Below the pieces are notes generated by a model. That model worked only from the letters and a program-made list of their open reading frames with translations, was not told the origin of the DNA and searched no databases. Source: Paenirhodobacter hankyongi (GTDB lineage: Bacteria > Pseudomonadota > Alphaproteobacteria > Rhodobacterales > Rhodobacteraceae). From it: 64,000 bases of DNA. A program made the position numbers and the translations under genes. The stretch covers positions 1 through 64,000 of the forward strand of contig NZ_RCHI01000010.1 in the NCBI RefSeq assembly GCF_003664585.1. The letters run 5' to 3'. Shown piece by piece: positions 22,110 to 51,398 of this stretch (position 1 is the stretch's first letter; every line of letters begins with the position of its first letter).

Positions 22110-22139
22110 GCTGTGATTCCCATTGCCGGGCTCCGGATG

Positions 22140-22158: not shown

Positions 22159-22171
22159 ACGGGGGGAAGAA

Positions 22172-28399: not shown

Positions 28400-28402
28400 T
28401 TC

Positions 28403-28708
28403 TTATCCCTTCCAGTCGGTTCGGGCGTAAAGCGGCCGCGTCGGCATGCGGCCGGATTTCTCATAGACGCAGCGGTCGAAGCGTGCGGAGGGGTCGTAGT
28501 TGCCGCCAAGGCCGATGTTCAGATCGACCTTGGTCCGGGTGCGGAAGCCCCCCGAGGTGGCCCCCATCCCGATCTCGCCGGAGATCGGCCTCTCGGACTG
28601 CACCTGCGCGAGGCACTGGCGCTCGGCAATGTCCACCGGCACCGGGGCGCAGGCGGCAAGGCACAGCCCCGCCACCGCAAGCGCCCCATATGCCGCGACA
28701 CGCCCCAT
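28403..28708 (-). CDS. Small lipoprotein encoded between sdhA and sdhB
   Basis: A 101-residue predicted lipoprotein: signal peptide with lipobox LAAC (Cys20), then a mature part with two Cys (QCLAQV; DRCVYEKSG) and a Gly/Thr-rich middle (GEIGMGATSGGFRTRT). No enzyme family is recognisable. Its ATG overlaps the sdhA stop by one base (TGATG), and sdhB starts 3 bp after its stop, so it is firmly within the operon and translationally coupled. Residue 20 is followed by Ala at +2, which favours the outer membrane. A link to succinate dehydrogenase is suggested only by position. Confidence 0.85.
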   Translation of the reverse strand: MGRVAAYGALAVAGLCLAACAPVPVDIAERQCLAQVQSERPISGEIGMGATSGGFRTRTKVDLNIGLGGNYDPSARFDRCVYEKSGRMPTRPLYARTDWKG

Positions 28709-30516: not shown

Positions 30517-30532
30517 TTGTGTCGTCCCGTAT

Positions 30533-30931
30533 TCAGTTCATCGCGCCGAGCACGATGCCGAGGAAGGTCATCTTCGCCAGCGCATAAAGCGCCACGGCGA
30601 TCACCAGATAGGCCACCGAATGGGCGGCGATGACCAGCACCTTGCGCGTCGTGCCCGCGGTGTAATCCTCGAGCATCATCTGCGCGCCCTTGGCGAAGTG
30701 GCGCATGCCCACGACCACGAGCAGCGCGGTCACGATCGCCGGGAAGGGCCGCGAGAAGGTCGCGATCACGCCTTCCTGGCTCTGGCCGAGGGCACGGCCG
30801 AAGACGATCAGGAAGACGGGCACGAGGAAGGCCAGCGCGACGGCGGAAACCGTCATGTACCAGTGGTCTTCGGTGCCGGTATGAGCGGCCCCCTTGCCCA
30901 CGGCGCGTTTGCGATCGGTCAGGTAACGCAT
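30533..30931 (-). CDS. sdhD: Succinate dehydrogenase membrane anchor subunit
   Basis: A 132-residue hydrophobic subunit with three membrane helices (about 25-45, 60-78, 95-125). The haem/quinone motif is [15 protein letters not shown], with the conserved His and the Asp-Tyr pair. It pairs with SdhC, encoded 10 bp upstream, to bind haem b and ubiquinone. Confidence 0.94.
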
Positions 30932-30941
30932 GAATGCCTCC

Positions 30942-31337
30942 TCAGACCATGACGATGATGACGGTGATGATGGTGAGAACCACCGACCCGATGATGATGC
31001 CCCAGCCGAGCTTCTCGGCGGTCTCGATCTCGAGGCCCTTGCCGGCGTCGAAGTAGAGGTGACGCAGGCCGGCGAGATAGTGATACCACACCGCCCAGGC
31101 CGAGAGCGTGAACACCAGATCGCCGAACCAGGAGGTGACGATCGCGTTCACGAAGTCGAAATAGCCGGGGCTCGTGGTCGCCGCGAGCAGCCACCAGACC
31201 GCGAGAAGCGCGCTTGCGATGAGGGCGTTGCCGGTGATCCGGGTGAGGATCGACGACATCGAGGTCATCTGCGGGCGGTAGTACGGGCCGATCATGAAGG
31301 GGGAAAGGGGCCGTTCAACCCGTTTCGTTTCAGCCAT
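30942..31337 (-). CDS. sdhC: Succinate dehydrogenase cytochrome b556 subunit
   Basis: A 131-residue membrane subunit. The N-terminal ERPLSPFMIGPYYRPQMTS is split as RPLSPFM and IYRPQMTSMSSILTRITG-like quinone-site sequence (SMSSILTRITG seen). The haem-ligand His lies in the GLRHLYFDAG segment, and three helices are predicted. The ATG at 31337 with AGAGGGA upstream starts the family N-terminus; the open frame to 31433 is an artefact. It is the first gene of the sdh operon, whose promoter region carries two GTGATCAC sites. Confidence 0.94.
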   Translation of the reverse strand: MAETKRVERPLSPFMIGPYYRPQMTSMSSILTRITGNALIASALLAVWWLLAATTSPGYFDFVNAIVTSWFGDLVFTLSAWAVWYHYLAGLRHLYFDAGKGLEIETAEKLGWGIIIGSVVLTIITVIIVMV

Positions 31338-31507
31338 TTTGGGTCCCTCTGTCGCTGGGCCCCGTTGGCGCGCCGGTCGAGGGCGGCTGGCGCGGGCGGG
31401 GCTGGCCGGATTTGCGCCCCCTGAATAGCGCATATTTCGCCCAAGTCACGAGCCCTGAATCGCGAATTGGCGCTTTCGGGCCGGGAAACGCGCAAAAAAA
31501 GTGCTTC

Positions 31508-31536
31508 GTGATCACAAATTTTCGGCGCGTGATCAC
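31508..31536. promoter_or_regulatory. Tandem GTGATCAC operators upstream of sdhC
   Basis: Two exact copies of the 8-bp palindrome, at 31508-31515 and 31529-31536, centres 21 bp apart (two helical turns). Both are flanked by pyrimidine on the left and purine on the right (C...A and C...G). They lie 171-199 bp before the sdhC start. The identical arrangement occurs upstream of sucC, and one copy precedes the GntR/FCD gene at 46809-47456. Confidence 0.75.
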
Positions 31537-31687
31537 GTGATTGCGCTCACACGACTCACCGCGACGGGAACGGACCGGGCCCGCTACGGACGGCCGCGCT
31601 GCCTGGGGCAAGGCCGCAGATCCCGGCCCCGGCCGACGAAAGACGGCGGAGCCAAAGCCCCGCCGTCACGCCCACGCCAACGGCGGA

Positions 31688-31713
31688 CCTTGAGTATTTG
31701 GGCCAAGAAAAAG
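31688..31713 (+). repeat. Dispersed intergenic element, copy 2
   Basis: CCTTGAGTATTTGGGCCAAG followed by AAAAAG. It shares GAGTATTT-N2/3-GCCAAGAAAAAG with the element at 44571-44597 (minus orientation) and resembles 2132-2160. It lies 45 bp past the stop of the hydratase gene. Function unknown. Confidence 0.6.
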
Positions 31714-31757
31714 CCAACGGTCCTGCTCAGGGGCCCGGGCGTTTTCCTGCGCGGGGG

Positions 31758-32795
31758 TCACATCGGCATCAGCGCCCAGTAGTCGAGATCGAGCAGCACC
31801 TCGGGCGCGTATTTGCCGTCTTCGCCCTTCAGCGCGAACTCGGCCGCGCCCTGCTTGACCGCGACCAGCCGCAGCCGGATCGCGCCGACGCCCGGGGCGT
31901 CGGTCTCGGCCTTGTCGAGCACCTCGGACCAGGCCTTGACGGTGTCGCCGGCAAAGCAGGGGTTGGCATGCGCGCCGCCGTTCAGCGCCACGATCATCTG
32001 CGCATTGGCAAGGCCGTTGAACGACAGCGCCCGCGCCATCGAGATCACATGGCCGCCATAGATCAGCCGCTTGCCGTCGTCGCGGAAGGTGGCGTCGAAA
32101 TGCACCTTGGCGGTGTTCTGCCACAGCCGCGTGGCGATCATGTGCTCGGCCTCCTCGATCGTCACGCCGTCGACGTGGTCGATCTTCTCGCCGATCTCGT
32201 AATCGCCCCAGCGGTGCGGCTCGCCGGCCAGACCGAAGTCATAGTCGCTGAAGTCGAGGCCCTCGGGCACCACCAGATCCTCGGCCGGCACTGCCTTTTG
32301 CAGCGCGGGCAGCACGGTTTCCGGCGCCGGCGCCGACAGGTCGCCCTTTCGCACCATCACCCAGCGGACATATTCGAGCACGACCTCGTCCATCTGGTTC
32401 AGCCCGCGGGTGCGGACATAGACGACGCCGGACTTGCCGTTCGAGTTCTCCTTGACGCCGATCACCTCGCTTTCCGAGCGCAGCGTGTCGCCCGGCCAGA
32501 CCGGCTTCAGCCAGCGCCCCTCGGCATAGCCGAGATTGGCGACGGCGTTCAGCGACACGTCGGGCACGGTCTTGCCGAAGACGACGTGGAAGGCGATCAG
32601 ATCGTCAAGCGGGCTGCCGTCGAGGCCGGAGGCGGCGGCGAACTCGTCCGAGGAATAAAGCGCGTGGCGCGCCGGGTAGAGCGCGTGATAGAGCGCGCGC
32701 TCGCCCTCGGCCACGGTGCGCGGCACGGCGTGGCGGATCACCTGCCCCACCTTGTAATCCTCGAAGAAACGGCCCGGATTGGTCTTCGCCATCAT
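31758..32795 (-). CDS. mch: Mesaconyl-CoA hydratase (ethylmalonyl-CoA pathway)
   Basis: A 345-residue protein with two MaoC-like hotdog halves. The first half has FFEDYKVGQVIRHAVPRTV and WLKPVWPGDTLRSESEV. The second half has GEKIDHVDGVTIEEAEHM, RLIYGGHVISMARALSFNG split as RLIYGGHVISMARAL, and CFAGDTVKAWSEVLD. It hydrates mesaconyl-CoA to beta-methylmalyl-CoA during acetyl-CoA assimilation. The start could be 32795 or the next codon 32792 (two adjacent ATGs); GGGAGA precedes both. The gene overlaps the DUF1737 stop. The malyl-CoA thioesterase of the same pathway is two genes upstream. Confidence 0.92.
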   Translation of the reverse strand: MMAKTNPGRFFEDYKVGQVIRHAVPRTVAEGERALYHALYPARHALYSSDEFAAASGLDGSPLDDLIAFHVVFGKTVPDVSLNAVANLGYAEGRWLKPVWPGDTLRSESEVIGVKENSNGKSGVVYVRTRGLNQMDEVVLEYVRWVMVRKGDLSAPAPETVLPALQKAVPAEDLVVPEGLDFSDYDFGLAGEPHRWGDYEIGEKIDHVDGVTIEEAEHMIATRLWQNTAKVHFDATFRDDGKRLIYGGHVISMARALSFNGLANAQMIVALNGGAHANPCFAGDTVKAWSEVLDKAETDAPGVGAIRLRLVAVKQGAAEFALKGEDGKYAPEVLLDLDYWALMPM

Positions 32796-32998
32796 TGCTC
32801 TCCCAGCTTCATCTCGGGGTCATAGTCCTTGCCCGGCACGTCCTTGGTGACGGCCTGCGCACAGCGCATCACGCCCTTCGCCGCGTCGAAGGCATAGGCG
32901 GGCGAGCCGTGCAGCTCCCAGCCTTTCGACAACGCCAGCGAGACCTTGTGGCAGAAGGCCGAGGTGTCGTCCTCGGTCAGCAGACGATAGAGTTTCAT
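32792..32998 (-). CDS. DUF1737 small protein
   Basis: A 68-residue soluble protein matching the DUF1737 pattern: MKLYRLLTEDD at the start, SLALSKGWELHGSPAYAFD and VMRCAQAVTK. No function is established. It is overlapped at both ends (ATGA with the NnrU gene; shared bases with the hydratase ATG), so it is translationally coupled inside the ethylmalonyl-CoA pathway operon. Confidence 0.82.
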   Translation of the reverse strand: MKLYRLLTEDDTSAFCHKVSLALSKGWELHGSPAYAFDAAKGVMRCAQAVTKDVPGKDYDPEMKLGEQ

Positions 32999-33552
32999 GG
33001 ATAGGTTCCCAGGAACGGGTTGTGGCCCAGAAGGATGTGCACCCAGGCGATCAGGCCATAGATCAGCAGGGTGCCGATCAGGTTCTTGATGTCGCCCTTG
33101 AACGAACCGGGCTTCGGCTTCTTCCAGGGGCCGGCGCGGTTGATCAGCACCATCTCGAGCACCGCCCAGAGCCCGAGCGAGCCGAACATCAGCACCGAGG
33201 CCGGGTCGCCGTTCACCAGCAGGTGGGCAACCGACCACAGCACCATGCCGGTCAGCATCGGGTGGCGGATCTTGTCGATCAGCACCGAGCGCGTGCTACC
33301 GACCCCGAAGAGATAGATCGCGATCAGCATCAGCGTGTTGTTCGCATGCCCCATGCCCGGCAGCGGGTCATAGAGGTTTTCCTGCGGCCCGCTCATGCGA
33401 TAGCCGACGATCATCAGCACGACGCCGACGCCGACCAGCGCTGCGACCATCGCTTTCGCCTGCGGCATCATCATCAGATGCCGGCGCGGCGCGAGTCGCT
33501 TGAACAGATGTGGCAGCACCCAAAGCAGGATGCCGAGGACGAGAATGCTCAT
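32995..33552 (-). CDS. NnrU-family membrane protein
   Basis: A 185-residue integral membrane protein with five to six helices. Family features are the N-terminal ILVLGILLWVLPHLFKRL, then GVGSTRSVLIDKIRHPMLTG and LLVNGDPASVLMFGSLG. NnrU was named from nitric-oxide metabolism loci, but its biochemical role is unclear, and relatives include isoprenoid methyltransferase-like membrane proteins. The ATG at 33552 begins the hydrophobic N-terminus. It is coupled to DUF1737 by an ATGA overlap and starts 10 bp after the thioesterase gene. Confidence 0.85.
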   Translation of the reverse strand: MSILVLGILLWVLPHLFKRLAPRRHLMMMPQAKAMVAALVGVGVVLMIVGYRMSGPQENLYDPLPGMGHANNTLMLIAIYLFGVGSTRSVLIDKIRHPMLTGMVLWSVAHLLVNGDPASVLMFGSLGLWAVLEMVLINRAGPWKKPKPGSFKGDIKNLIGTLLIYGLIAWVHILLGHNPFLGTYP

Positions 33553-33562
33553 GGGATGCCTC

Positions 33563-34438
33563 TCAGTTGCCCAGAGCGGCAATCGCCTCCGCCTTGGCGA
33601 GGATCTGCCGCGCCGTCACGATATGCAGGTTTTCGACGATCTTTCCATCCACGACCGCGACACCGAGCCCGGCTTTCTCGGCCTCGTCGAAAGCGGCGAT
33701 CTGGCGCTGTGCCAGGTCGATCTCGGCCGCCGAGGGGGCGAAGGCCGCATTCGCGATCTCGAGCTGGGCGGGGTGGATCAGGGTCTTGCCGTCAAAGCCC
33801 ATGTCGCGCCCCTGGTCGCATTCGACTTTCAGCCCCTCCTCGTCCTTGAAGGCGTTGTAGACGCCGTCGACGATGATCTTGCCGAAGGCCTTGGCGGCCA
33901 GCAGGCAGGTGCCGAGCCCGGCCATCATCGGCAGACGGTCGGCGCGGAAGCGGCTCTGCAGCTCCTTCGCGAGGTCGTTGGTGCCCATCACCATGCCCTC
34001 GAGACGGGGGTGCGAGGCGATCTCGGCCGCGTTCAGCATGCCGAGCGCGGTCTCCATCATCGCCCAGAGCGGCACGCCCGGGATCAGGTCGGCGACCGCG
34101 TCGAGATCGGACTTGCGCGACACCTTCGGGATCAGGATCGCGTCCACCTTCGCGCCCTCGCGGATCGCGGCGGCAAAGGCGCGCAGGTCGTCACGGCCCC
34201 ATTCGGTATCGAGCCCGTTGACCCGCACGATGCGCGCCCGCGCACCGTAATCCGCCTCTTTCAGCGCCTTCGCCAGGATCGCGCGCGCGTTCACCTTCTC
34301 GTCGACGGCGACCGCATCCTCGAGGTCGAAGATGATCGCGTCGCAGGCGAGGCCCGTGGCCTTCTCGAGCGCGCGCTCCTTCGAGCCGGGGATATAGAGC
34401 ACCGAGCGATAGGGACGGGACGTGCCGTGAGCGGTCAT
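33563..34438 (-). CDS. mcl2: (3S)-malyl-CoA thioesterase, Mcl2 type (CitE/HpcH family)
   Basis: A 291-residue TIM-barrel enzyme of the citrate lyase beta family. Acyl-CoA and Mg2+ site residues are visible in RSVLYIPGSKERAL, IIFDLEDAVAVDEK, RIVRVNGLDTEWG, MMETALGMLNA and MGTNDLAKEL. The N-terminus resembles Mcl2, which hydrolyses (3S)-malyl-CoA to malate, more than the lyase Mcl1; this is a judgement from remembered sequences. It is first of four coupled genes ending with mesaconyl-CoA hydratase and is divergent from mdh, which uses its product malate. The ATG at 34438 has GAGGAG before it. Confidence 0.85.
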   Translation of the reverse strand: MTAHGTSRPYRSVLYIPGSKERALEKATGLACDAIIFDLEDAVAVDEKVNARAILAKALKEADYGARARIVRVNGLDTEWGRDDLRAFAAAIREGAKVDAILIPKVSRKSDLDAVADLIPGVPLWAMMETALGMLNAAEIASHPRLEGMVMGTNDLAKELQSRFRADRLPMMAGLGTCLLAAKAFGKIIVDGVYNAFKDEEGLKVECDQGRDMGFDGKTLIHPAQLEIANAAFAPSAAEIDLAQRQIAAFDEAEKAGLGVAVVDGKIVENLHIVTARQILAKAEAIAALGN

Positions 34439-34440
34439 GA

Positions 34441-35697
<1,257 letters not shown>

Positions 35698-35720
35698 TCC
35701 GGCAAGGATTGTCTCTCGGG

Positions 35721-35748
35721 AAAGGCGCGGCTCCGGCCGCGCCTTTTT
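35721..35748 (+). terminator. Rho-independent terminator of mdh
   Basis: AAAGGCGCGGC / GCCGCGCCTTTTT hairpin with a T-tract, 23 bp after the mdh stop. It also separates mdh from the convergent glycosyltransferase gene. Confidence 0.9.
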
Positions 35749-35757
35749 CATTTGGGC

Positions 35758-36804
35758 TCAGGCGGCGACGAGGGGCGTGGGGTCGAAGCCGAAGCTTTGC
35801 GCCGCCCGCGCGAACAGCGCCGCCTCATGCGCCAGCAGCGCCCGGTCGAAGCCCGCGGGGCTCAGGTCGACCGCGCCGACCACCCGCGCCGTCCGCGCCG
35901 CGATCTGCGGATCGAAGCGGGCGAGCACCCCCTCGCGCTCGAGCGCCCGGGCCTGTCCGGCATCGATCACCTTCGCCGCCAGCCACTGCGCATGCAGAGC
36001 GCGCGCGTTGTGTGCCGCTCCCGCCATCGCCTCGAACTGCAACTGCCGCTGCGGCGCGTGCGAGGGCGGGTTCTTTGCCATCGCGTTCAGCGCGCGGCGC
36101 ATCATCTTCAGCGCGTAATGCAGCTCGGTCAGCCCGTCGTAATGCAGCAGCGCGAGCTTGGCCGTGCCGTCATAGGGCACATCGCGCCCGCCGCCGTTCC
36201 ACTCGCGCATCGGCCGGTGCACGCCGACGAACAGCTCCCGCCCCGAGCGCACCGCACATTTGCCGAGGTTGTGCCCGCACAGCCCCTTGTTCAAGAGCGT
36301 CAGCGCCGCGTCGTCATAGATCGTCCCGCCGCGCGCCTCGAACCCCCACCAGGGCAGGCGATAGACACCGGTGAAGATGTCGGCCGCCGGCAGATCGTCG
36401 AGGTGAGTGCGCTCGGCCACGCCGATCTTCACCCAGCTCGCGCCCGGCCGGACGGCACTCAGCACCTCGGCGACGCTTTCGCCCGTCGTGGGCAGGACGA
36501 ATTCATCGGCGTCGCAATGCACCAGCCAGTCAAGCTTTGTCGCGGCCAGCATCCGGCTGGCGTGATACTTCTGCCGGCCAAGATGCTTGACCGGGCGAAA
36601 CCCGTTCGAGAAGGCCCAGCCGTCCTCGCCCGCGTCATGCAGCACCGCGCCCGGCACCCCCGCCAGCAGGTCGCGCGCCTCGGGGTTCGGGCGGTCGAGG
36701 CAGATGTGCACCTCGTCGGCGCCAAGATCGAGATGATGCGCCACGAAGGCCGCAATCAGGGCCGCAGGCTCGTCCGCCAGTGCCACCACGCCCCATCTGT
36801 CCAT
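35758..36804 (-). CDS. Glycosyltransferase family 2-like protein (Glyco_tranf_2_4 type)
   Basis: A 348-residue predicted glycosyltransferase. The N-terminal part has VVALADEPAALIAAFVAHHL and GADEVHICLDRPNPEA, and the metal/nucleotide-sugar DXD motif is DWLVHCDADEFVLP near residue 95. GKCAVRSGRELFVGVHRP belongs to the family's later part. No membrane helix is present. Substrate unknown. It sits alone between mdh and sucC on the opposite strand, an insertion into the TCA block. The ATG at 36804 fits the domain start; the open frame upstream is not homologous. Confidence 0.8.
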   Translation of the reverse strand: MDRWGVVALADEPAALIAAFVAHHLDLGADEVHICLDRPNPEARDLLAGVPGAVLHDAGEDGWAFSNGFRPVKHLGRQKYHASRMLAATKLDWLVHCDADEFVLPTTGESVAEVLSAVRPGASWVKIGVAERTHLDDLPAADIFTGVYRLPWWGFEARGGTIYDDAALTLLNKGLCGHNLGKCAVRSGRELFVGVHRPMREWNGGGRDVPYDGTAKLALLHYDGLTELHYALKMMRRALNAMAKNPPSHAPQRQLQFEAMAGAAHNARALHAQWLAAKVIDAGQARALEREGVLARFDPQIAARTARVVGAVDLSPAGFDRALLAHEAALFARAAQSFGFDPTPLVAA

Positions 36805-36868
36805 GCCCCGCCCGCTCCCTGTTCTGCCGCCCGAAGTCTTTCCGATTCCTTCGCACCGGACAAGCCTC

Positions 36869-36885
36869 ATGCTGCTCCGCAGCAT
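36869..36885. promoter_or_regulatory. Candidate PhaR-type operator (ATGCTGC-N3-GCAGCAT)
   Basis: Perfect 7-3-7 palindrome containing CTGC-N3-GCAG, placed just left of the GTGATCAC pair upstream of sucC. The same core occurs at 27535-27549. Confidence 0.45.
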
Positions 36886-36887
36886 TT

Positions 36888-36916
36888 GTGATCACGCATT
36901 TGAGGGGTGTGATCAC
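36888..36916. promoter_or_regulatory. Tandem GTGATCAC operators upstream of sucC
   Basis: Exact copies at 36888-36895 and 36909-36916, centres 21 bp apart, the same spacing as upstream of sdhC. Flanks are T...G and T...A, giving YGTGATCACR. They lie 111-139 bp before the sucC start codon. Confidence 0.75.
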
Positions 36917-37026
36917 AAAGCGCGCTTTTCTGCCGATCCGGGCAGTCGTCACGCATTTATCGGTTTGTTACACGCCCCGAATGTGCCAAACCACCATGCA
37001 AATCGCACCAGCATGGGAACTCTGCC

Positions 37027-38220
37027 ATGAACATTCATGAATATCAGGCGAAGCAGCTCCTCAAGAGCTACGGCTGCCCGGTCTCCGAGGGCCGTCCGGT
37101 CCTGAAGGCCGACGAAGCCAAGACCGCCGCCTCCGAGCTCGACGGCCCGCTCTGGGTGGTCAAGGCCCAGATCCATGCCGGCGGCCGCGGCAAGGGCAAG
37201 TTCAAGGAGCCGGAAGCCGGCGAAAAGGGCGGCGTCCGCCTCGCGAAGTCGGTGGAGGAGGCTGCCGAACTCGCCAAGCAGATGCTCGGCCGCACCCTGG
37301 TCACGCACCAGACCGGCCCGGCCGGCAAGCAGGTGAACCGGATCTACATCGAAGACGGTTCGGACATCTCGCGCGAGCTCTACCTCGCGCTGCTGGTTGA
37401 CCGCCAGACCTCGCGCGTCTCCTTCGTCGTCTCGACCGAAGGCGGCATGGACATCGAGGAAGTGGCCGCCCACACCCCCGAGAAGATCATGTCCTTCTCG
37501 GTCGACCCGGCGACCGGGCTGAGCGACTTCCACGGCCGCCGCGTGGCCTTCGCCCTCGGGCTCGAAGGCGCGCAGGTCAAGCAGTGCGTCGCGCTGGTCA
37601 AGAACCTCTACCGTGCCTTCATCGAGAAGGACATGGAGATGCTCGAGATCAACCCGCTGATCGTCATGACCGACGGCAATCTCAAGCTGCTCGACGCCAA
37701 GCTCGGCTTCGACAACAACGCGCTCTACCGTCACTCCGACATCATGGCGCTGCGCGACGAGACCGAAGAGGATCCGAAGGAACTCGAAGCCTCGAAGTAT
37801 GACCTGAACTACATCGCGCTCGACGGCGAGATCGGCTGCATGGTGAACGGCGCGGGCCTGGCCATGGCGACGATGGACATCATCAAGCTCTACGGCGCGG
37901 AACCGGCGAACTTCCTCGACGTGGGCGGCGGCGCGACCAAGGAAAAGGTCACCGAAGCCTTCAAGATCATCACCTCGGACCCGAACGTGAAGGGCATCCT
38001 GGTCAACATCTTCGGCGGCATCATGCGCTGCGACATCATCGCCGAGGGCGTCATCGCCGCGGTGAAGGAAGTCGGCCTCAAGGTTCCGCTGGTGGTGCGC
38101 CTCGAAGGCACCAACGTCGAGCTGGGCAAGGAGATCATCTCGAAATCCGGCCTGAACGTGATCGCGGCGGACAACCTCGCCGACGGCGCCCAGAAAATCG
38201 TGAAAGCTGTGAAGGGCTAA
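37027..38220 (+). CDS. sucC: Succinyl-CoA synthetase beta subunit (ADP-forming type)
   Basis: A 397-residue ATP-grasp subunit. [16 protein letters not shown] starts the grasp fold, [14 protein letters not shown] is the nucleotide-binding loop, MEMLEINPL and [16 protein letters not shown] line the Mg-nucleotide site, and NFLDVGGGA / [10 protein letters not shown] complete the CoA-ligase domain. It makes succinate and ATP (or GTP) from succinyl-CoA. sucD follows 4 bp later. Its promoter region carries two GTGATCAC palindromes and a CTGC-N3-GCAG site. Confidence 0.98.
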
Positions 38221-38224
38221 GAAC

Positions 38225-39112
38225 ATGGCAGTCCTCGTCAACAAAGAAACCAAAGTCATCTGCCAGGGCATCACCGGCTCGCAGGGCACCTTCCACACCG
38301 AGCAGGCGATCGCCTACGGCACCAAGATGGTCGGCGGCGTGACCCCCGGCAAGGGCGGCTCCGAGCACCTCGGCCTGCCGGTGTTCAACTCGGTCCACGA
38401 GGCCGTGGCCAAGACCGGCGCCAACGCGACCGCGATCTACGTGCCGCCGCCCTTCGCCGCCGACTCGATCCTCGAGGCGATCGACGCCGAGATCGAGCTG
38501 ATCGTCTGCATCACCGAGGGCATTCCGGTGCTCGACATGATGAAGGTGAAGCGCGCGCTGATCGACAGCAAGTCGCGCCTGATCGGGCCGAACTGCCCGG
38601 GCGTCATGACCCCCGACGAATGCAAGATCGGCATCATGCCGGGCTCGATCTTCAAGCGCGGTTCGGTCGGCGTCGTGTCGCGTTCGGGCACCCTGACCTA
38701 TGAAGCCGTGAAGCAGACGACCGACATCGGTCTGGGCCAGTCCTCGGCCGTGGGCATCGGCGGCGACCCGATCAAGGGCACCGAGCACATCGACGTGCTC
38801 GACATGTTCCTCGACGATCCGGAAACCACCTCGATCATCATGATCGGCGAAATCGGTGGCTCGGCCGAAGAGGAAGCCGCGGAATTCCTGAAGGAGCAGA
38901 AGAAGAAGGGCCGCTGGAAGCCGACCGCCGGTTTCATCGCGGGCCGCACCGCTCCTCCCGGCCGCCGCATGGGCCACGCGGGCGCCATCGTCTCGGGCGG
39001 CAAGGGCGACGCCGGTTCGAAGATCGAAGCGATGCGCTCGGCCGGTATCGTGGTGGCCGAAAGCCCCGCCCATCTCGGCGAAGCCGTGATGAAGGCGATC
39101 AAGGGCGAATGA
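38225..39112 (+). CDS. sucD: Succinyl-CoA synthetase alpha subunit
   Basis: A 295-residue subunit carrying the phosphohistidine. The CoA-binding Rossmann start is [19 protein letters not shown], split as [13 protein letters not shown], and the active-site His is in [38 protein letters not shown], split as [10 protein letters not shown], is family-typical. The gene lies 4 bp after sucC and is followed by two small lipoprotein genes before sucA. Confidence 0.98.
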
Positions 39113-39239
39113 GTTCCGGGAGGCCGCGGGAGACCGCGGCCTCCATTCCCACTCCGCAGTGCCGAGCGGGCCCGGCAGGCCCGTTTCGCCCTTCTGAGTG
39201 GTTCCAAAGGTCGGACGCGGCCTGAATTCGGAGGTTGAG

Positions 39240-39566
39240 ATGAGAAAAGTGACGTCTGGCGCCCTGGCCTCGGCCATTGCCCTCATGATGCTGGCAGGCT
39301 GCAGCGGCGGCCCCGGCAAGGACCCGATCCCGCTTTCGGCATCCGGCCCGATCACCACCTATCCGATCATCGGCACCAGCAAGGTCCCGCAGGGAACCAC
39401 GCCGACCGGCTCGACCGGTTACGCGGTGGCCAATTCCGCCCGTTCCAACGGCTCCATCGTCGCCGGCACTGCCGCGACCTGCGGGGCCGCGAATGCAGGC
39501 GGTGAGTACGAGCTTGCCTGTGCCCAGGCAGCCGGTCAACCGGGCGCTGCCTCCCCCTACAAGTGA
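39240..39566 (+). CDS. Small lipoprotein between sucD and sucA (first)
   Basis: A 108-residue predicted lipoprotein. Lipobox LAGC ends a signal peptide of about 20 residues, and the mature part is rich in Gly, Thr and Ser (TTPTGSTGYAVANSARSNGS) with two Cys near the end (ATCGAAN; LACAQ). No family recognised. GGAGG lies close before the ATG at 39240. It lies 127 bp after sucD and 28 bp before the next lipoprotein gene, all on one strand without a visible terminator, so it is probably transcribed with the suc genes. Confidence 0.75.
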   Translation: MRKVTSGALASAIALMMLAGCSGGPGKDPIPLSASGPITTYPIIGTSKVPQGTTPTGSTGYAVANSARSNGSIVAGTAATCGAANAGGEYELACAQAAGQPGAASPYK

Positions 39567-39594
39567 CGCAGCGTTCCGCAGGAGAGTGAAGACA

Positions 39595-39963
39595 ATGAAA
39601 CGTGGACTTCCGGCTGTCTCGGCCGCGCTGGCGGCGCTGATGCTCGCGGGCTGCATGACTGCAGCCCCCGGCAGCGGCACCGCGACGGCCGCGCTGGCAC
39701 CGCCGGTGCCGAAGGACGAGCGCTCGCACGGCACCTTCGAGCAGATGACCGGCATCAATGGCGATGCCGTCTCGGCGATCTCGGGCGATACCAAGCGCGC
39801 CTATATCTATTTCGATTTCTTCGCCGCCGACAAAACCGCGGTGAAAGCCGCGCCGGCGAAGCTCTGTGCCCATTACGGCAAGGGCCTGAAATCGTCCTTC
39901 GTCACCGAGCCGGGCGACCGCGAACCCGGCATCAAAGTTCTCGTGGTGGACTGCGCAGGCTGA
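39595..39963 (+). CDS. Small lipoprotein between sucD and sucA (second)
   Basis: A 122-residue predicted lipoprotein with lipobox LAGC at about residue 19. The mature part includes ERSHGTFEQMTGINGDAVS, YIYFDFFAADKTAVKAA and KVLVVDC, with two Cys (KLCAHY; VDCAG) that could form a disulfide. No family recognised. GGAGAG precedes the ATG. The sucA start lies 53 bp downstream. Function unknown; position implies co-expression with 2-oxoglutarate dehydrogenase. Confidence 0.75.
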   Translation: MKRGLPAVSAALAALMLAGCMTAAPGSGTATAALAPPVPKDERSHGTFEQMTGINGDAVSAISGDTKRAYIYFDFFAADKTAVKAAPAKLCAHYGKGLKSSFVTEPGDREPGIKVLVVDCAG

Positions 39964-40016
39964 TCCGCCACCCCCGCCCCTCACCGGCCCCTCAGCCGTT
40001 TCCAAGGACAACCGTC

Positions 40017-42986
40017 ATGAATGACCAATCCCCCAACGAACAGTTCGAAGCCTCGAGCTTCCTGCAAGGCGCGAACGCGGATTACGTCGAACAGCTCTAT
40101 GCCCGTTTCGCCGCCGACCCGAGCTCGGTCGATACCGCCTGGGCCGCCTTCTTTGCCTCGCTCGGCGACAACGAGCTCGACGTGAAGAAATCGGCGCAGG
40201 GCCCGTCCTGGGCGCGCTCCGACTGGCCGCCGAGCCCGAATGACGACCTGACCGGCGCGCTGACCGGCGAATGGCCGATGGTGCCGGCGAAGGAAGCCAA
40301 GGCCGCCGGCGACAAGATCAAGGCGAAGGCCGCCGAGGCCGGCGTGCAGGTCTCCGAAGACGCGGTGAAGCGCGCCGTGCTCGACTCGGTGCGCGCGATC
40401 ATGATCATCCGCGCCTATCGTATCCGCGGCCACCTGATCGCCGATCTCGACCCGCTGCACATGCGCGACGAGACCGCGCACCCCGAGCTCGACCCGAAGT
40501 CCTACGGCTTCACCGACGCCGACATGGACCGCCCGATCTTCATCGACAACGTGCTCGGCCTGCAGGTCGCGTCGATGCGGCAGATCATCGACGTGCTGAA
40601 GCGCACCTATTGCGGCACCTTCGCGCTGCAGTACATGCACATCTCGAACCCCGAGGAAGCCGGCTGGCTGAAGGAGCGGATCGAGGGCTACGGCAAGGAG
40701 ATCCAGTTCACCCGGGAAGGCCGCCGCGCCATCCTGAACAAGCTGGTCGAGGCCGAGGGCTTCGAGAAGTTCCTGCACGTCAAGTACATGGGCACCAAGC
40801 GCTTCGGCCTTGACGGTGGCGAAGCGCTGATCCCGGCGATGGAACAGATCATCAAGCGCGGTGGCAACCTCGGCCTGAAAGAGGTCGTCTTCGGCATGCC
40901 GCACCGCGGCCGCCTGTCGGTGCTGGCCAACGTGATGATGAAGCCCTACCGGGCGATCTTCCACGAATTCCAGGGCGGCTCCTACAAGCCCGACGACGTC
41001 GACGGTTCGGGCGACGTGAAGTATCACCTCGGCGCCTCGGCCGACCGCACCTTCGACGAGCACACCGTCCACCTGTCGCTGACCGCCAACCCCTCGCACC
41101 TCGAGGCGGTGAACCCGGTCGCGCTTGGCAAGGTGCGCGCGAAGCAGGACCAGCTGAACGACACCGACCGCACCCAGGTGCTGGCGGTGCTGCTGCATGG
41201 CGACGCGGCCTTCGCCGGTCAGGGCGTGGTGGCGGAATGCTTCCAGCTTTCCGGCATCCGCGGCCACCGCACCGGCGGCACCATCCACATCGTGGTGAAC
41301 AACCAGATCGGCTTCACCACGGCGCCGCACTTCTCGCGCTCCTCCCCCTATCCGACCGACATCGCGCTGATGGTGGAAGCCCCGATCTTCCACGTGAACG
41401 GCGACGATCCCGAGGCCGTGGTTCACGCCGCCAAGGTCGCGACCGAGTTCCGCCAGAAGTTCCACAAGGACGTGGTCATCGACATCTTCTGCTATCGCCG
41501 CTTCGGTCATAACGAAGGCGACGAGCCGATGTTCACCAACCCCGCGATGTACAAGAACATCAAGGGCCACAAGACCACGCTGCAGCTCTACACCGAGCGT
41601 CTCGTTGCCGACGGGCTGATCCCGGAAGGCGAGATCGAGGACATGAAGGCCGCCTTCCAGGCCAAGCTGAACGAGGAATTCGAGATCGGCAAGGCGTTCA
41701 AGCCGAACAAGGCCGACTGGCTCGACGGCCGCTGGAAGCATCTCGACCGGCAGAGCTCGGATTATGACGCGGGCGTCACCCCGATCTCGCCCGAGCAGCT
41801 GGCCGAGCTCGGCAAGGCGCTGACCTCGCACCCGGACAGCTTCGACATCCACAAGACCGTGGGGCGTCTGCTCGAGTCGAAGAAGAAGATGTTCGAGACC
41901 GGCACCGGCTTCGACTGGGCGACGGCCGAGGCGCTGGCCTTCGGCTCGCTGCTCACCGAGGGCTTTGCGGTGCGCCTGTCCGGGCAGGACTGCACCCGCG
42001 GCACCTTCTCGCAGCGCCATTCGGCCTTCATCGACCAGTCGACGGAAGAGCGCTACTACCCGCTGAACCACATCAAGCCGGGTCAGGCGCGTTACGAAGT
42101 GATCGACTCGATGCTGTCGGAATATGCGGTGCTCGGCTTCGAGTACGGCTATTCGCTGGCCGAGCCGAACTGCCTGACGCTGTGGGAAGCCCAGTTCGGC
42201 GACTTCGCCAACGGCGCGCAGATCATGTTCGACCAGTTCATCAACTCGGGCGAACGCAAGTGGCTGCGCATGTCGGGGCTCGTCTGCCTGCTGCCGCATG
42301 GCTTCGAGGGCCAGGGCCCCGAGCACAGCTCGGCCCGTCTCGAACGCTTCCTGCAGCTCTCGGCGGAAGACAACTGGATCGTGGCGAACTGCTCGACCCC
42401 GGCGAACTACTTCCACATCCTGCGCCGGCAGATCCACCGCAACTTCCGCAAGCCGCTGATCCTGATGACGCCGAAGTCGCTTCTGCGCCATCCGCTGTGC
42501 ACCTCGAAGGCCGAGGAATTCACCACCGGCTCGTTCTTCCGCCGCGTGATGTGGGACGACGCCGACGTGCAGCAGAAGCACGGCAACTCGGAGTTCCGGG
42601 TGAAGCCGGACAGCGAGATCAAGCGCGTCGTGATCTGCTCGGGCAAGGTCTACTACGACCTGCTGGCCGAGCGCGACAAGCGCGGCCTCGAGGATGTCTA
42701 CATCCTGCGTCTCGAACAGTTCTACCCGTTCCCGGCGCATTCGATGGTGACCGAGCTCAGCCGCTTCAAGGACGCCGAGGTGATCTGGTGCCAGGAAGAG
42801 CCGAAGAACCAGGGCGCCTGGACCTTCGTCGAGCCGAACATCGAGTGGGTGCTGTCGAAGATCGACGCCAAGCACTCGCGTCCGCGCTATGCCGGCCGCA
42901 ACGCCTCGGCCTCGCCGGCCACGGGCCTTGCCAAGAGCCACAAGGCGGAGCAGGACGCGCTCGTCAACGACGCGCTGGAGGGCTGA
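40017..42986 (+). CDS. sucA: 2-Oxoglutarate dehydrogenase E1 component
   Basis: A 989-residue thiamine-diphosphate decarboxylase, the first enzyme of the complex. The N-terminal E2-binding segment is FLQGANADYVEQLYARFAAD, split as FLQGANADYVEQLY. The active site includes GMPHRGRLSVLANV and the ThDP motif begins LLHGDAAFAGQG, continuing to VVNNQIGFTT. The C-terminal transketolase-like domain carries DDNW-like AEDNWIVANCSTPANYFH and QEEPKNQGAW. Length is usual. sucB begins 3 bp after its stop. Confidence 0.98.
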   Translation: MNDQSPNEQFEASSFLQGANADYVEQLYARFAADPSSVDTAWAAFFASLGDNELDVKKSAQGPSWARSDWPPSPNDDLTGALTGEWPMVPAKEAKAAGDKIKAKAAEAGVQVSEDAVKRAVLDSVRAIMIIRAYRIRGHLIADLDPLHMRDETAHPELDPKSYGFTDADMDRPIFIDNVLGLQVASMRQIIDVLKRTYCGTFALQYMHISNPEEAGWLKERIEGYGKEIQFTREGRRAILNKLVEAEGFEKFLHVKYMGTKRFGLDGGEALIPAMEQIIKRGGNLGLKEVVFGMPHRGRLSVLANVMMKPYRAIFHEFQGGSYKPDDVDGSGDVKYHLGASADRTFDEHTVHLSLTANPSHLEAVNPVALGKVRAKQDQLNDTDRTQVLAVLLHGDAAFAGQGVVAECFQLSGIRGHRTGGTIHIVVNNQIGFTTAPHFSRSSPYPTDIALMVEAPIFHVNGDDPEAVVHAAKVATEFRQKFHKDVVIDIFCYRRFGHNEGDEPMFTNPAMYKNIKGHKTTLQLYTERLVADGLIPEGEIEDMKAAFQAKLNEEFEIGKAFKPNKADWLDGRWKHLDRQSSDYDAGVTPISPEQLAELGKALTSHPDSFDIHKTVGRLLESKKKMFETGTGFDWATAEALAFGSLLTEGFAVRLSGQDCTRGTFSQRHSAFIDQSTEERYYPLNHIKPGQARYEVIDSMLSEYAVLGFEYGYSLAEPNCLTLWEAQFGDFANGAQIMFDQFINSGERKWLRMSGLVCLLPHGFEGQGPEHSSARLERFLQLSAEDNWIVANCSTPANYFHILRRQIHRNFRKPLILMTPKSLLRHPLCTSKAEEFTTGSFFRRVMWDDADVQQKHGNSEFRVKPDSEIKRVVICSGKVYYDLLAERDKRGLEDVYILRLEQFYPFPAHSMVTELSRFKDAEVIWCQEEPKNQGAWTFVEPNIEWVLSKIDAKHSRPRYAGRNASASPATGLAKSHKAEQDALVNDALEG

Positions 42987-42989
42987 TCG

Positions 42990-44522
42990 ATGGCCGAAGT
43001 CCGCGTCCCCACGCTTGGCGAGAGCGTCTCGGAAGCCACCGTCGCCACCTGGTTCAAGAAGCCGGGTGACACGGTCGCCGCCGACGAGATGCTGTGCGAG
43101 CTCGAGACCGACAAAGTGACCGTCGAGGTTCCGGCCCCCGCCGCGGGTGTGCTGGCCGAGATCGTCGCCGCCGAGGGCGAGACGGTGGGCGTGAATGCCC
43201 TTCTCGCCACGATCAACGAAGCGGGCGCCGCGGCGCCCGCCCCGCAACCCAAATCCGAAGGCGCGGCAGCCCCTCAGCCGGCCGCGCAACAGTCCAAAGA
43301 GGTCAAGATGACGGACGTGATGGTGCCCGCCCTGGGCGAGAGCGTGTCGGAAGCCACGGTTTCCACCTGGTTCAAGAAAGTGGGCGACACGGTCGCGCAG
43401 GACGAGATGCTGTGCGAGCTTGAAACCGACAAGGTCTCGGTCGAGGTTCCCTCGCCCGTCGCCGGCGTGCTGACCGAGATCGTCGCCCCCGAGGGCGCGA
43501 CCGTCGCCGCCTCGGCGAAGCTTGCCGTCGTCGCCGAAGGCGCCGCCGGTGCGGTCGCCGCGCCTGCCGCCGCCGCTCCGGCCGCCGCCCCCGCCGCGGC
43601 CGCTGCGCCCGCCGGCAAGGATGTCGAGGACGCGCCCGCCGCGAAGAAGGCGATGGCCGAGGCCGGCCTCACCCCCTCGCAGGTCACCGGCACCGGCCGT
43701 GACGGCCGGATCATGAAGGAAGACGTTGCCGCGGCCGCCGCCAAGGCCGCCGCCGCTCCGGCCGTCTCCATCGCGCCCGCCCCGGCCTCGGCCCCGCGCG
43801 CCCCGGTCTCGTCGGACGACGCCGCCCGCGAGGAACGCGTGAAGATGACGCGCCTGCGCGCCACCATCGCGCGCCGCCTGAAGGACGCGCAGAACACCGC
43901 CGCGATGCTCACGACCTACAACGAGGTCGACATGTCGGGCATCATGGCGCTGCGCAACGAATACAAGGACGCGTTCGAGAAGAAGCACGGCGTGCGGATG
44001 GGCTTCATGTCCTTCTTCACCAAGGCCTGCTGCCACGCGCTGAAGGAAGTGCCGGAAGTCAACGCCGAGATCGACGGCGGCGACGTCGTCTACAAGCACT
44101 ACGTCCACATGGGCGTGGCTGCGGGCACGCCCACGGGCCTCGTCGTTCCGGTGATCCGCGACGCCGACCAGATGTCGTTCGCCGACATCGAGAAGGCGAT
44201 CGCCGAGAAGGGCAAGCGCGCCCGTGACGGCAAGCTGACCATGGCGGAAATGCAGGGCGGCACCTTCACGATCTCGAACGGCGGCGTCTACGGCTCGCTG
44301 ATGTCCTCGCCGATCCTGAACCCGCCGCAGTCGGGCATCCTCGGCATGCACAAGATCCAGGATCGCCCGGTCGTGGTGAACGGCCAGATCGTGATCCGCC
44401 CGATGATGTATCTCGCGCTGAGCTACGATCACCGCATCGTCGACGGCAAGGGCGCGGTGACCTTCCTCGTCCGCGTCAAGGAAGCGCTGGAAGACCCGCG
44501 CCGCCTGCTGCTGGATCTGTGA
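42990..44522 (+). CDS. sucB: Dihydrolipoyl succinyltransferase (E2) with two lipoyl domains
   Basis: A 510-residue E2. Two near-identical lipoyl domains lie at residues 1-76 (lipoyl Lys42 in LETDKVTV) and 107-182 (Lys148 in LETDKVSV), joined by an Ala/Pro linker. A peripheral-subunit-binding domain follows ([22 protein letters not shown]), then the catalytic domain ending with [13 protein letters not shown]. Most SucB proteins have one lipoyl domain and about 400 residues. The second copy begins at an ATG (43308) preceded by AGAGG 5 nt upstream, so a 404-residue one-lipoyl form could also be made. Confidence 0.96.
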
Positions 44523-44570
44523 TCCGACACCGGGGCGGCGCGCGCGCCGCCCCTTCTTCCATTCCGGCCC

Positions 44571-44597
44571 CTTTTTCTTGGCGGAAATACTCCGGGG
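44571..44597 (-). repeat. Dispersed intergenic element, copy 3
   Basis: Read on the minus strand: CCCCGGAGTATTTCCGCCAA followed by GAAAAAG, between sucB and lpd. It shares GAGTATTT and GCCAAGAAAAAG with 31688-31713. A GC-rich stretch with GGGGGGCGGCGCCCCCC (hairpin-capable) follows at 44604-44621. Function unknown. Confidence 0.6.
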
Positions 44598-44642
44598 GGC
44601 ACGGGGGGCGGCGCCCCCCGACACTGCCAAAGGATCGAAACC

Positions 44643-46031
44643 ATGGCTGAATTTGATGTGATCGTGATCGGCGGCGGCCCGGGTGGCTATGTCTGCGCGA
44701 TCCGCTGCGCCCAGCTGGGCCTCAAGACCGCCTGTGTCGAGGGCCGTGGCGCCCTTGGCGGCACCTGCCTGAACGTCGGCTGCATCCCCTCGAAGGCGCT
44801 GCTGAACGCCACGCACCACCTGCACGAGGTGCACGAGAACTTCGAGAAGATGGGCCTCACCGGCGCCAAGGTGAAGGTCGACTGGGCGAAGATGCAGTCC
44901 TACAAGCAGGACGTCATCGACGGCAACACCAAGGGCATCGAGTTCCTGTTCAAGAAGAACAAGGTGACCTACCTGCAGGGCTGGGGCTCGATCCCGGCGG
45001 CGGGTCAGGTGAAGGTCGGCGACGAGGTCCACTCGGCCAAGGCGATCGTGATCGCCACCGGCTCGGAACCGGCCTCGCTGCCGGGCATCGAGATCGACGA
45101 GGACACCGTCGTCACCTCGACCGGCGCGCTCTCGCTGCCGAAGATCCCGAAGTCGATGGTCGTCATCGGCGCCGGCGTCATCGGGCTCGAGATGGGTTCG
45201 GTCTATGCCCGCCTCGGCACCGAAGTGACCGTCGTCGAATATCTCGACGCGATCACCCCCGGCATGGACGGTGAAGTTGCCAAGAACTTCCAGAAGATCC
45301 TCACCAAGCAGGGGCTGAAGTTCGTCCTCGGCGCCGCGGTGCAGGGCGTCGAGAAGGGCAAGGGCAAGAACACCGTCACCTACAAGCTGCGCAAGGACGA
45401 GAGCGAAGCCGCGATCGAAGCCGAGGTGGTGCTCGTGGCGACCGGCCGCAAGCCCTACACCGCGGGTCTCGGCCTCGAGGCGATCGGCGTCGAGATGCTG
45501 CCGCGCGGTCAGGTGAAGACCGACGCGCATTGGGCGACCTCGGTGAAGGGCATCTACGCGATCGGCGACGCGATCGTCGGCCCGATGCTCGCCCACAAGG
45601 CCGAGGACGAGGGCATGGCGGTGGCCGAGGTGATCGCCGGCAAGCATGGCCACGTGAACTATGACGTGATCCCCGGCGTGATCTACACCACCCCCGAGGT
45701 GGCCTCGGTCGGCAAGACCGAAGAGGTGCTGAAGCAGGAAGGCCGCGCCTACAAGGTCGGCAAGTTCTCCTTCATGGGCAACGGCCGCGCCAAGGCGGTG
45801 TTCCAGTCGGAAGGCTTCGTGAAGCTGATCGTCGATGCGGGCACCGACCGCATCCTCGGCTGCCACATCATCGGGCCGTCGGCGGGCGAGCTGATCCACG
45901 AGATCTGCGTCGCGATGGAATTCGGCGCCTCGGCGCAGGATGTCGCGCTGACCTGCCACGCCCACCCGACCTTCTCGGAAGCGGTGCGCGAGGCGGCTCT
46001 GGCCTGTGGCGACGGCGCGATCCACGCCTGA
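44643..46031 (+). CDS. lpd: Dihydrolipoyl dehydrogenase (E3)
   Basis: A 462-residue flavoprotein disulfide reductase. FAD fold [15 protein letters not shown], redox-active disulfide [16 protein letters not shown] (residues about 40-55), NAD fold [20 protein letters not shown] split as [14 protein letters not shown], and the C-terminal His-Glu pair in [14 protein letters not shown]. It reoxidises the lipoyl groups of SucB. It lies 120 bp after sucB and is followed by a terminator, closing the suc block. Confidence 0.98.
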
Positions 46032-46054
46032 GCCCCTCCGGCACGGATACGGAA

Positions 46055-46082
46055 AAGGGCGGCCCTCGGGCCGCCCTTCTTC
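46055..46082 (+). terminator. Terminator of the suc/lpd genes
   Basis: Perfect repeat AAGGGCGGCCC-TC-GGGCCGCCCTT followed by CTTC, 24 bp after the lpd stop. The following stretch, 46083-46237, shows no gene or clear signal. Confidence 0.8.
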
Positions 46083-46237
46083 ATGCGAACGCCCCGGTCA
46101 ACGGGGGATGCCGGACCGGGGCGCCGGTCCGAGCGGCGGCGGCTTCGGTTCCGTGAACGCCGCACGAACAGAGACGTTACGGCCCCGACCGCCGCTTCCG
46201 TCGCATCGTCCGCCCCCGCGCCGAAGGATTGCGCGGC

Positions 46238-46738
46238 TCACTCGCCCTCGCGCGCCGCCCGCTCGAGCCGCTCGGCGAATTCGCGGCGCAGCGACTTGCG
46301 CACCTCGGCCGCGCGCCAGCGGTGCTTTTCCAGCGCCCCCTGCGGCACCAGCGTCGGCACCTCGGCGGGCCGGCCCTCGTCATCGACCGCGACCATGGTG
46401 AAGTAACAGCTGTTGGTGTGGCGCCGCGTGCCCGAGGTGATGTTCTCCGCCTCGACCCGGATGCCGATCTCCATCGAGCTGCGCCCGGTATGGTTGACGG
46501 CGGCCGAGAACCGGACCAGCTCGCCCACATGGATCGGCTGCTTGAAGGTCACCTGATCGACCGAGAGCGTCACCGCATAGCGCCCCGAATATCGCGAGGC
46601 GAGCGAGAAGGCGACGCGGTCAAGCCAGTTCAACAGCGCCCCGCCATGCACCTTGCCCGAGAAATTCGCCATGTCCGGCGTCATCAGCACCGTCATCTCG
46701 AGCACCTTGCGCTCGTCGTCGGTCAGAGTCTGGTTCAT
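46238..46738 (-). CDS. Hotdog-fold acyl-CoA thioesterase
   Basis: A 166-residue YciA/BACH-type thioesterase. The hotdog helix and catalytic region are FSGKVHGGALLNWLDRVAFS (residues about 26-45); VTLSVDQVTFKQPIHVGELV and SMEIGIRVEAENITSG complete the sheet, and HTNSCYFTMVAVDDEGRP is family-typical. It hydrolyses acyl-CoA esters; chain-length preference cannot be told. It is convergent with lpd and lies downstream of the GntR/FCD gene on the same strand, 70 bp apart. Confidence 0.88.
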   Translation of the reverse strand: MNQTLTDDERKVLEMTVLMTPDMANFSGKVHGGALLNWLDRVAFSLASRYSGRYAVTLSVDQVTFKQPIHVGELVRFSAAVNHTGRSSMEIGIRVEAENITSGTRRHTNSCYFTMVAVDDEGRPAEVPTLVPQGALEKHRWRAAEVRKSLRREFAERLERAAREGE

Positions 46739-46808
46739 CCGTGCCCCCGTTTTCGGGCCAGCATGACCCCGGGCGCGGAAAGGTCAATCCCCCTGCCCTG
46801 CCTGTGGC

Positions 46809-47456
46809 TCATTGCGCGAGGTGGCGCAGCCCCTGGGTCACGTCGGTGCGCACCGCAAGGCGCAGCCCCGGCTCGTCGCCCGCCCGCAGCGCGGCGAGGA
46901 TCAGCCGGTGATGGCGCGGCGGCTCGTTGCGCTGCATCCGGCCATAGAGCGCGCGCATGGTCGGGCCGAGCTGCAGCCAGACGGTCTCGATCACCGCCAG
47001 CATCGCCGGCGCCTGCGCGCGCAGGTAAAGGGTGCGGTGGAACTCGAGATTGGTGCGGATGTAGCCCACGGCGTCATGCTTGGCGACCGCCTCGGCATTC
47101 GCGGTGTTGATCGCACCAAGCCGGTCGATCAGCGCAAGGTGGGCCCGCGGCAGGGCGCGCGAGGCCAGCTCCGGCTCGATCAGGGCGCGCAGCGCGGCAA
47201 GCTCCTCGATCCGCTCGTTCGAGAGCTCGGGCGTCGTCACCCGGCCCGACGAGGACAGCATCAGCGCGCCTTCGGCAATCAGCCGGCGCAGCGCTTCGCG
47301 CACCGGGGTCATCGAGACGTCGAATTGCTTGGCCAGCCCGCGCAGGGTCAATGCCTGGCCGGGGGCCAGTTCGCCATGCATGATCTGCAGCCGCAGCGTG
47401 CGATAGATCCGGTCATGCGCGGCGGTCTCGATCGGGCGGGTGGTGATCGTGGTCAT
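46809..47456 (-). CDS. GntR-family regulator, FCD type; candidate TCA-cycle regulator
   Basis: A 215-residue regulator. Winged-helix: HDRIYRTLRLQIMHGELAPG, then LTLRGLAKQFDVSMTPVREALRRL (split as LRGLAKQFDVSMTPVREAL). The FCD domain has ALRALIEPELASRAL, with metal-binding-type residues in NLEFHRTLYLRA and EPPRHHRLILAAL. Ligand unknown. The ATG at 47456 has no Shine-Dalgarno sequence; CCCC precedes it, so the mRNA may be leaderless. A GTGATCAC palindrome sits 10-17 bp before the start, identical to paired sites upstream of sdhC and sucC, which makes this the prime candidate to bind them. Confidence 0.88.
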   Translation of the reverse strand: MTTITTRPIETAAHDRIYRTLRLQIMHGELAPGQALTLRGLAKQFDVSMTPVREALRRLIAEGALMLSSSGRVTTPELSNERIEELAALRALIEPELASRALPRAHLALIDRLGAINTANAEAVAKHDAVGYIRTNLEFHRTLYLRAQAPAMLAVIETVWLQLGPTMRALYGRMQRNEPPRHHRLILAALRAGDEPGLRLAVRTDVTQGLRHLAQ

Positions 47457-47465
47457 GGGGCGTAT

Positions 47466-47473
47466 GTGATCAC
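47466..47473. promoter_or_regulatory. GTGATCAC operator upstream of the GntR/FCD gene
   Basis: Single exact copy, flanked by T and G (TGTGATCACG), 10 bp from the start codon. A partial match GTGATCGT lies inside the coding region at 47443-47450. It is likely an autoregulatory site. Confidence 0.7.
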
Positions 47474-47501
47474 GAATCCGCCCGGCGTCAATGCCGCGCC
47501 G

Positions 47502-48200: not shown

Positions 48201-48340
48201 CGGTCATCCGGGGCTTCGGGGCAGTTCACGGCGAGCGATCGCCCCCGCGGCGCAGAAAGCGCGGAAAAGGCTTTGACACCCCCCCGCATGTATGGCAGTT
48301 GGCTGCGACTCTGTGCGAAAGAGCTTGCCAGGAGACTTCC

Positions 48341-51343: not shown

Positions 51344-51364
51344 CGGCAACGCTCCGGTTGGAAA

Positions 51365-51390
51365 GGCGCCCCGGCACGGGCCGGGACGCC
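51365..51390 (-). other. Intercistronic hairpin between binding protein and ATPase genes
   Basis: Inverted repeat GGCGCCCCGG / CCGGGACGCC (one mismatch) just after the binding-protein stop, with no T-tract. Such hairpins often stabilise the upstream mRNA so that the binding protein is made in excess over the ATPase and permease. Confidence 0.5.
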
Positions 51391-51398
51391 GTGGGAGA

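Follow-up and report, generated by a model that had tools for sequence, protein, structure and literature searches.

Paired GTGATCAC palindromes before sdh and suc track a putative AkgR-type regulator across the Rhodobacterales

Among described regulators of tricarboxylic acid (TCA) cycle genes, the closest to the one considered here is AkgR, which we take to be RSP_0981 of Rhodobacter sphaeroides. RSP_0981, a GntR family protein, was predicted to regulate the genes for succinyl-CoA synthetase, succinate dehydrogenase and alpha-ketoglutarate dehydrogenase (PMC4344238; Imam, Noguera and Donohue 2015), and the available passages of PMC6365646 place GTGATCAC among the AkgR sites of R. sphaeroides and call AkgR a transcriptional activator. 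Here we describe a 64-kb stretch of Paenirhodobacter hankyongi DNA (contig NZ_RCHI01000010.1, positions 1 to 64,000; hereafter the window) that carries the sdh and suc operons, five copies of GTGATCAC and a gene for a GntR/FCD regulator (46809..47456, minus strand). As far as the available passages describe AkgR, the two systems share their targets, with sites before the sdh and suc operons, and the operator GTGATCAC; the window differs in belonging to another genus and in its regulator gene, which lies beyond lpd and beside a YgjP-like gene.

Other regulators also converge on these genes or on this palindrome. In R. sphaeroides, sdh is also a predicted target of CceR (RSP_1663) and NtrC (PMC4344238), and succinate and 2-oxoglutarate dehydrogenases belong to the CceR regulon of R. 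sphaeroides and not to that of Paracoccus denitrificans (PMC11323563, whose available passages name AkgR only in the references). The available passages of PMC5343134 hold nothing on an sdh/suc/AkgR regulon. In Pseudomonas simiae, the GntR-like factor PS417_07240 has a conserved GTGATCAC upstream of its deoxyribonate cluster; it is 32% identical to AkgR and, in the passages available, has one site and a different target pathway (PMC6365646).

Paired palindromes and the regulator gene

A scan of the whole window gave exactly five exact copies of GTGATCAC, at 31508, 31529, 36888, 36909 and 47466, all of them intergenic by the open reading frame (ORF) calls and all fitting YGTGATCACR. Two predicted operator sites precede sdhC (proximal, 31508..31515; distal, 31529..31536) and two precede sucC (distal, 36888..36895; proximal, 36909..36916, with the sucC ATG at 110 bp); within each pair the two sites are spaced by 21 bp, and a glycosyltransferase ORF that runs divergently has its start codon (at 36885) just 2 bp from site 36888. 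The fifth, a predicted single operator (47466..47473), is separated from the regulator ATG by 9 bases. This recount agrees with the original prediction, made from the letters of the window, in the number, positions, 21-bp pairing, intergenic placement and consensus of the sites. Its estimate that such an 8-mer would occur well under once in 64 kb was too strong: dinucleotide shuffles of the window (n = 100) gave a mean of 0.85 and a maximum of 4, and the genome (3.80 Mb, 52 contigs) holds 79 copies, or about 1.3 per 64 kb.

Given those 79 copies, we dropped the rarity of the single 8-mer as a main argument; the rare feature is close pairing. Two copies of GTGATCAC within 2–32 bases occur at two places only in this genome, the sdhC and sucC pairs. 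When up to three mismatches were allowed around a 13-base spacer, 91 places were found versus 3 for the control; among the matches listed, the sdhC and sucC pairs were the only exact ones, a near-pair with one mismatch was dropped as a further target because it sits inside long open frames, and no convincing further tandem target was found among the exact and one-mismatch places, at which inspection stopped.

Pairing and regulator occur together throughout the order. In a sample of 292 Rhodobacterales genomes, searched for close GTGATCAC pairs and with the regulator protein (orthologue threshold E < 1e-60, our own cut), the pair was present in 287 genomes (backward-read control, 1) and a regulator match likewise in 287. 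Both were found in 286, neither in 4, the regulator only in 1 and the pair only in 1, a concordance of 290/292 (Fisher's exact p = 8e-8, uncorrected for kinship, with the four double-absence genomes in three genera). The proposal that the pair would track orthologues of this regulator was thus borne out. Joint presence was scored genome by genome, and the gene adjoining the pair was checked in fetched samples, where 27 of 30 pair loci stood before sdhC or sucC; the other three (L032, L033 and L050, with spacings of 18, 27 and 18) had no sdhC or sucC nearby, their pairs lying within open frames. In a tally limited to spacings of 19–22 bp, 55 distinct pairs (34 before sucC, 21 before sdhC) were spaced by 21 bp (46 cases), 20 bp (8) or 19 bp (1).

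The few discordant or empty genomes bear on which protein maintains the pairs. The regulator-only genome, G230, has kept near-pairs with one mismatch at sucC and two mismatches upstream of sdhA, and in the pair-only genome, G023, the gene next to the regulator position runs into unreadable bases. Three of the four double-absence genomes (G110 and G226, of one genus, G140 and G231) retain weaker regulator matches (7, 23 and 9), with 23 in G140, yet have no pair; such relatives therefore do not maintain pairs. The homologue in G110 and G226 is 48–50% identical and falls outside the orthologue clade (support 96/99, in a tree with 12 of 20 inner branches open), and in G231 the YgjP gene still directly neighbours lpd, with about 160 bp between them and the regulator missing. 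No near-pair with up to four mismatches was found close to sucC in the region before sucC in any of the four; upstream of sdhA, G231, G226 and G140 show weak, chance-like matches with 3–4 mismatches, that of G140 at a spot compatible with a remnant.

Beyond the order, a class-wide draw of 289 genomes had pairs with 12–13-base spacers in all 4 members of the family and in 2 of the 285 others, and regulator matches at E ≤ 1e-30 in 13 of those 285, all 34–42% identical. One of the two outside pairs (G492) lies in open frames and was rejected as an operator; the other (G437) stands before a distant FCD-type gene. In G437 (L242:960-1020), two exact copies and one mismatched copy of GTGATCAC lie in a row, 20–21 bp apart, about 180 bp before this GntR/FCD-type gene, whose product shows 28% identity, a hint that this protein group has long favoured the palindrome.

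The regulator gene has a site of its own in most of the loci compared. Among the best 80 of 491 confirmed named loci, 68 have an exact GTGATCAC no more than 120 bp upstream of the regulator gene. The ATG follows 7–10 bp past the site in 61 of these 68, and in 66 TTGAC stands no more than 45 bp ahead of the site (2.2 by shuffling), with a gap of 12–14 bases in 62 of the 66. Control of sdh, suc and its own gene by the regulator, by way of GTGATCAC, is supported, at the level of sequence, by this own-gene site and by the joint presence described above; the original prediction on this point is very probably right, and its substance is already in the literature.

Operator geometry at the three putative promoters

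At sdhC, a GTGACT resembling a −35 box (31444..31449, minus strand) lies 58 bp from the operator pair, followed after 16 bp by a −10-like TATTCA (31422..31427, minus strand); both are putative promoter elements. Of 21 loci with an sdh pair, 17 have GTGAC downstream of it, and in a wider set of 37 distinct rows the best −10-like hexamer, commonly resembling TATTnn, came 16 bases after GTGACW in 22 and 17 or 18 bases after it in 12. Relative to the predicted start, near 31415 (minus strand), the sdh operators would be centred near −97 and −118. The sucC promoter was not resolved from the aligned upstream regions and the consensus scan.

The distance between pair and GTGACW clusters at helical-turn steps. 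A pair followed within 45–75 bases by GTGACW was found in 239/292 genomes (control, 0). In the first 150 rows (144 genomes) among the matches listed, the distance was 57–61 in 109 rows, 47–48 in 22 and 69–71 in 13; the off-peak values were 50 (2 rows), 54 (1), 66 (2) and 68 (1), and each of the four rows at 54, 66, 66 and 68 is an additional match from a genome with another row at one of the peaks. Five genera make up the outer class at 47–50 and nine that at 69–71. Within a single genus the distance shifts from 59 (G013) and 58 (G016) to 70 (G050), and in another from 60 (G044) to 71 (G021); one fetched locus has a distance of 80. For 20-bp pairs, the distal site lies 79–81 from GTGACW in 9 of 12, like the main class of 21-bp pairs. 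Clustering as strong did not arise in any of 20000 permutations, a figure that serves as a guide only, the rows being related.

Distances at helical-turn steps are as predicted for an upstream activator that makes contact with polymerase from a single face of the helix. We consider it probable that the quantised distance, which in several genera has moved by roughly one full turn, is a natural phasing experiment revealing a face-dependent, FCD-type GntR activator that works as paired dimers and represses its own, near-leaderless gene from a single site over the −10 region. The helical phasing is the new part; the regulon was already known. In the main text of PMC4344238, as available, the words 'helical', 'spacing' and 'autoregulat' are absent, and we found no published description of the phasing in the literature searched, mostly top-ranked results, although the original AkgR paper may hold some.

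The geometry at the regulator gene is of another kind. In the window, TTGACG (47486..47491, minus strand), a candidate −35 box, lies 12 bp before the operator. Because the site stands between TTGAC and ATG at regular distances, it covers the expected −10 box, with the start expected at the ATG; this placement suggests autorepression.

The regulator protein and the surrounding genes

The regulator, 215 residues long, belongs by sequence to the FCD group of the GntR family (PF00392, 2.9e-16; PF07729, 1.2e-18; both over cut-off), and a homologue search led us to annotate it as AkgR-type. The homologue in Sinirhodobacter ferrireducens is identical over 215 residues and that of Rhodobacter capsulatus is 86% identical; the genome itself has 13 FCD matches, including two relatives 41% and 36% identical to the window regulator. 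The FCD metal-binding pocket has an Asp/His/His/His set. Residues N136, H140, H183 and D205, invariant in 81/81 rows of the regulator alignment, were matched to the positions of this set by pattern, the structure model being weak (mean predicted local distance difference test score 71.7; predicted template modelling score 0.43); they may line the pocket, which would bind a small carboxylate or related effector. A fold search with this weak model returned GntR/FCD proteins with low template modelling (TM) scores. At its top was Escherichia coli McbR/YncC (PDB 4p9f), also the closest solved structure by sequence (2.3e-21), with 31% identity in a fold alignment whose TM-scores were low; its target genes differ from those proposed here.

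On its 5' side the regulator gene adjoins a gene for a YgjP-like metallopeptidase, in a neighbourhood (46238-48670) of thioesterase, regulator, YgjP-like metallopeptidase and FYDLN-acid genes. The YgjP gene adjoins the regulator in 79 of the 80 named loci and the FYDLN gene is present in many.

The sdhC-D-A-B cluster lies on the minus strand, with the first GTGATCAC pair before sdhC (30942..31337; Pfam Sdh_cyt on a longer frame, with homologues favouring the start at 31337 over the frame from 31433), followed by sdhD, sdhA and sdhB (27617..30931; ORF calls and Pfam). On the plus strand, the second pair precedes sucC and then sucD (succinyl-CoA synthetase, 37027..39112; ORF calls and Pfam), behind which come sucA, sucB and lpd (2-oxoglutarate dehydrogenase, 40017..46031). 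The latter two were assigned by ORF calls and Pfam; the first we take to be sucA from its sequence. All three would be co-transcribed with sucCD. Between sucD and sucA are two overlapping small frames (39198-39963), lipoprotein-like and with no Pfam match.

Elsewhere in the window, the region between sdh and suc (31758-36885) holds mesaconyl-CoA hydratase-like, CitE/malyl-CoA lyase-like and family 2 glycosyltransferase genes and, by appearance, a malate dehydrogenase-like gene. At 48813-52466 (minus strand) lie genes that, by their appearance, encode a sugar-type ABC transporter (permease, ATPase and periplasmic binding protein). The window encodes a second GntR/FCD protein (PF07729, PF00392) at 21965-22945 (plus strand), beside apparent ATP synthase F0 genes at 23.0–25.5 kb; it was set aside as a candidate for the regulator of these sites, since nothing was found linking it to GTGATCAC, though no cross-genome search was aimed at it.

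Proposed mechanism and alternatives

Shared regulon, shared motif and a near-universal close homologue in the order suggest that the window regulator is the counterpart, by orthology, of AkgR of R. sphaeroides. We regard it as highly probable that the five sites are operators of this protein, through which it would activate sdh and suc and repress its own gene. At sdh, two dimers would sit side by side, two helical turns apart and a good way upstream of the promoter, at about −97 and −118 from the predicted start; by analogy, sucCD and the genes behind it would have the same paired arrangement. Held on a fixed face of the helix, the paired dimers would touch RNA polymerase and raise transcription, an activating role to which the operator geometry points. 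At the regulator gene a single dimer would cover the −10 region of a promoter starting at or next to the ATG, causing repression. The net effect would be to raise TCA cycle genes while holding the regulator's own level steady.

Several observations weigh against this reading. The case rests on sequence, with binding and expression predicted. Joint presence was counted with the adjoining gene checked at a sample of the pairs only. Two genomes, G132 and G011, encode the regulator (65% and 69% identity) and show an exact pair at suc but none at sdh. The arrangement of pair plus GTGACW was not found in 53/292 genomes, 5 of them without any pair, and a stricter sigma-70 consensus scan recognised no promoter at sdhC or sucC in the window. 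Twelve of the 80 named loci have no exact own-gene site, and the window lacks a good −10 sequence at the regulator's own promoter. In many species TTGAC shares bases with the stop codon of the preceding gene, and coding constraint may account for part of its conservation; no such overlap occurs in the window or in L089. Finally, to judge by its gene number, RSP_0981 would sit on the sdh side, unlike the window gene, which lies beyond lpd.

Of the alternatives, the one that survives best, though we think it unlikely, is that GTGACW-N16-TATTnn at sdhC marks where a second regulator binds and is not the promoter, the phasing then reflecting contact between two regulators. The predicted action of CceR and NtrC on sdh in R. 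sphaeroides (PMC4344238) speaks for it, as does the negative sigma-70 scan, but the elements are unlike the RSP_1663 motif given in the available passages of that paper. They also resemble −35 and −10 boxes, with the 16-base separation prevailing in 22/37 rows.

Many GntR/FCD proteins are repressors, and the regulator could instead bind these sites to repress sdh and suc until a TCA cycle metabolite relieves it, as the repressor-like placement of its own site might suggest. This is slightly less likely still: a pair 58 bp upstream of the −35-like box, at distances clustered in helical-turn steps, fits polymerase contact better than occlusion, and AkgR is termed an activator in the available passages of PMC6365646.

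That another GntR/FCD paralogue reads the pairs is improbable. The 13 FCD matches of the genome, with relatives at 41% and 36% identity, supply candidates, and distant relatives occur beside the same palindrome in G437 and, from the available passages on PS417_07240, in P. simiae; but the four orthologue-less genomes have no pairs, though three retain other relatives, and it is the window regulator gene that has the site before its start codon. The 79 genomic copies would allow the palindromes some role apart from the regulator (methylation site, nucleoid protein or chance), but with close pairs confined to sdh and suc in this genome and concordance in 290/292 genomes we give this almost no credence.

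Under the preferred reading, in which an AkgR counterpart activates sdh and suc and represses itself, a TCA cycle control circuit known from one phototroph would be near-universal in the sampled genomes of the order. Its phasing series offers natural variants with which to probe the contact between a GntR activator and RNA polymerase, and operator geometry alone may distinguish an activating from a self-repressing arrangement.

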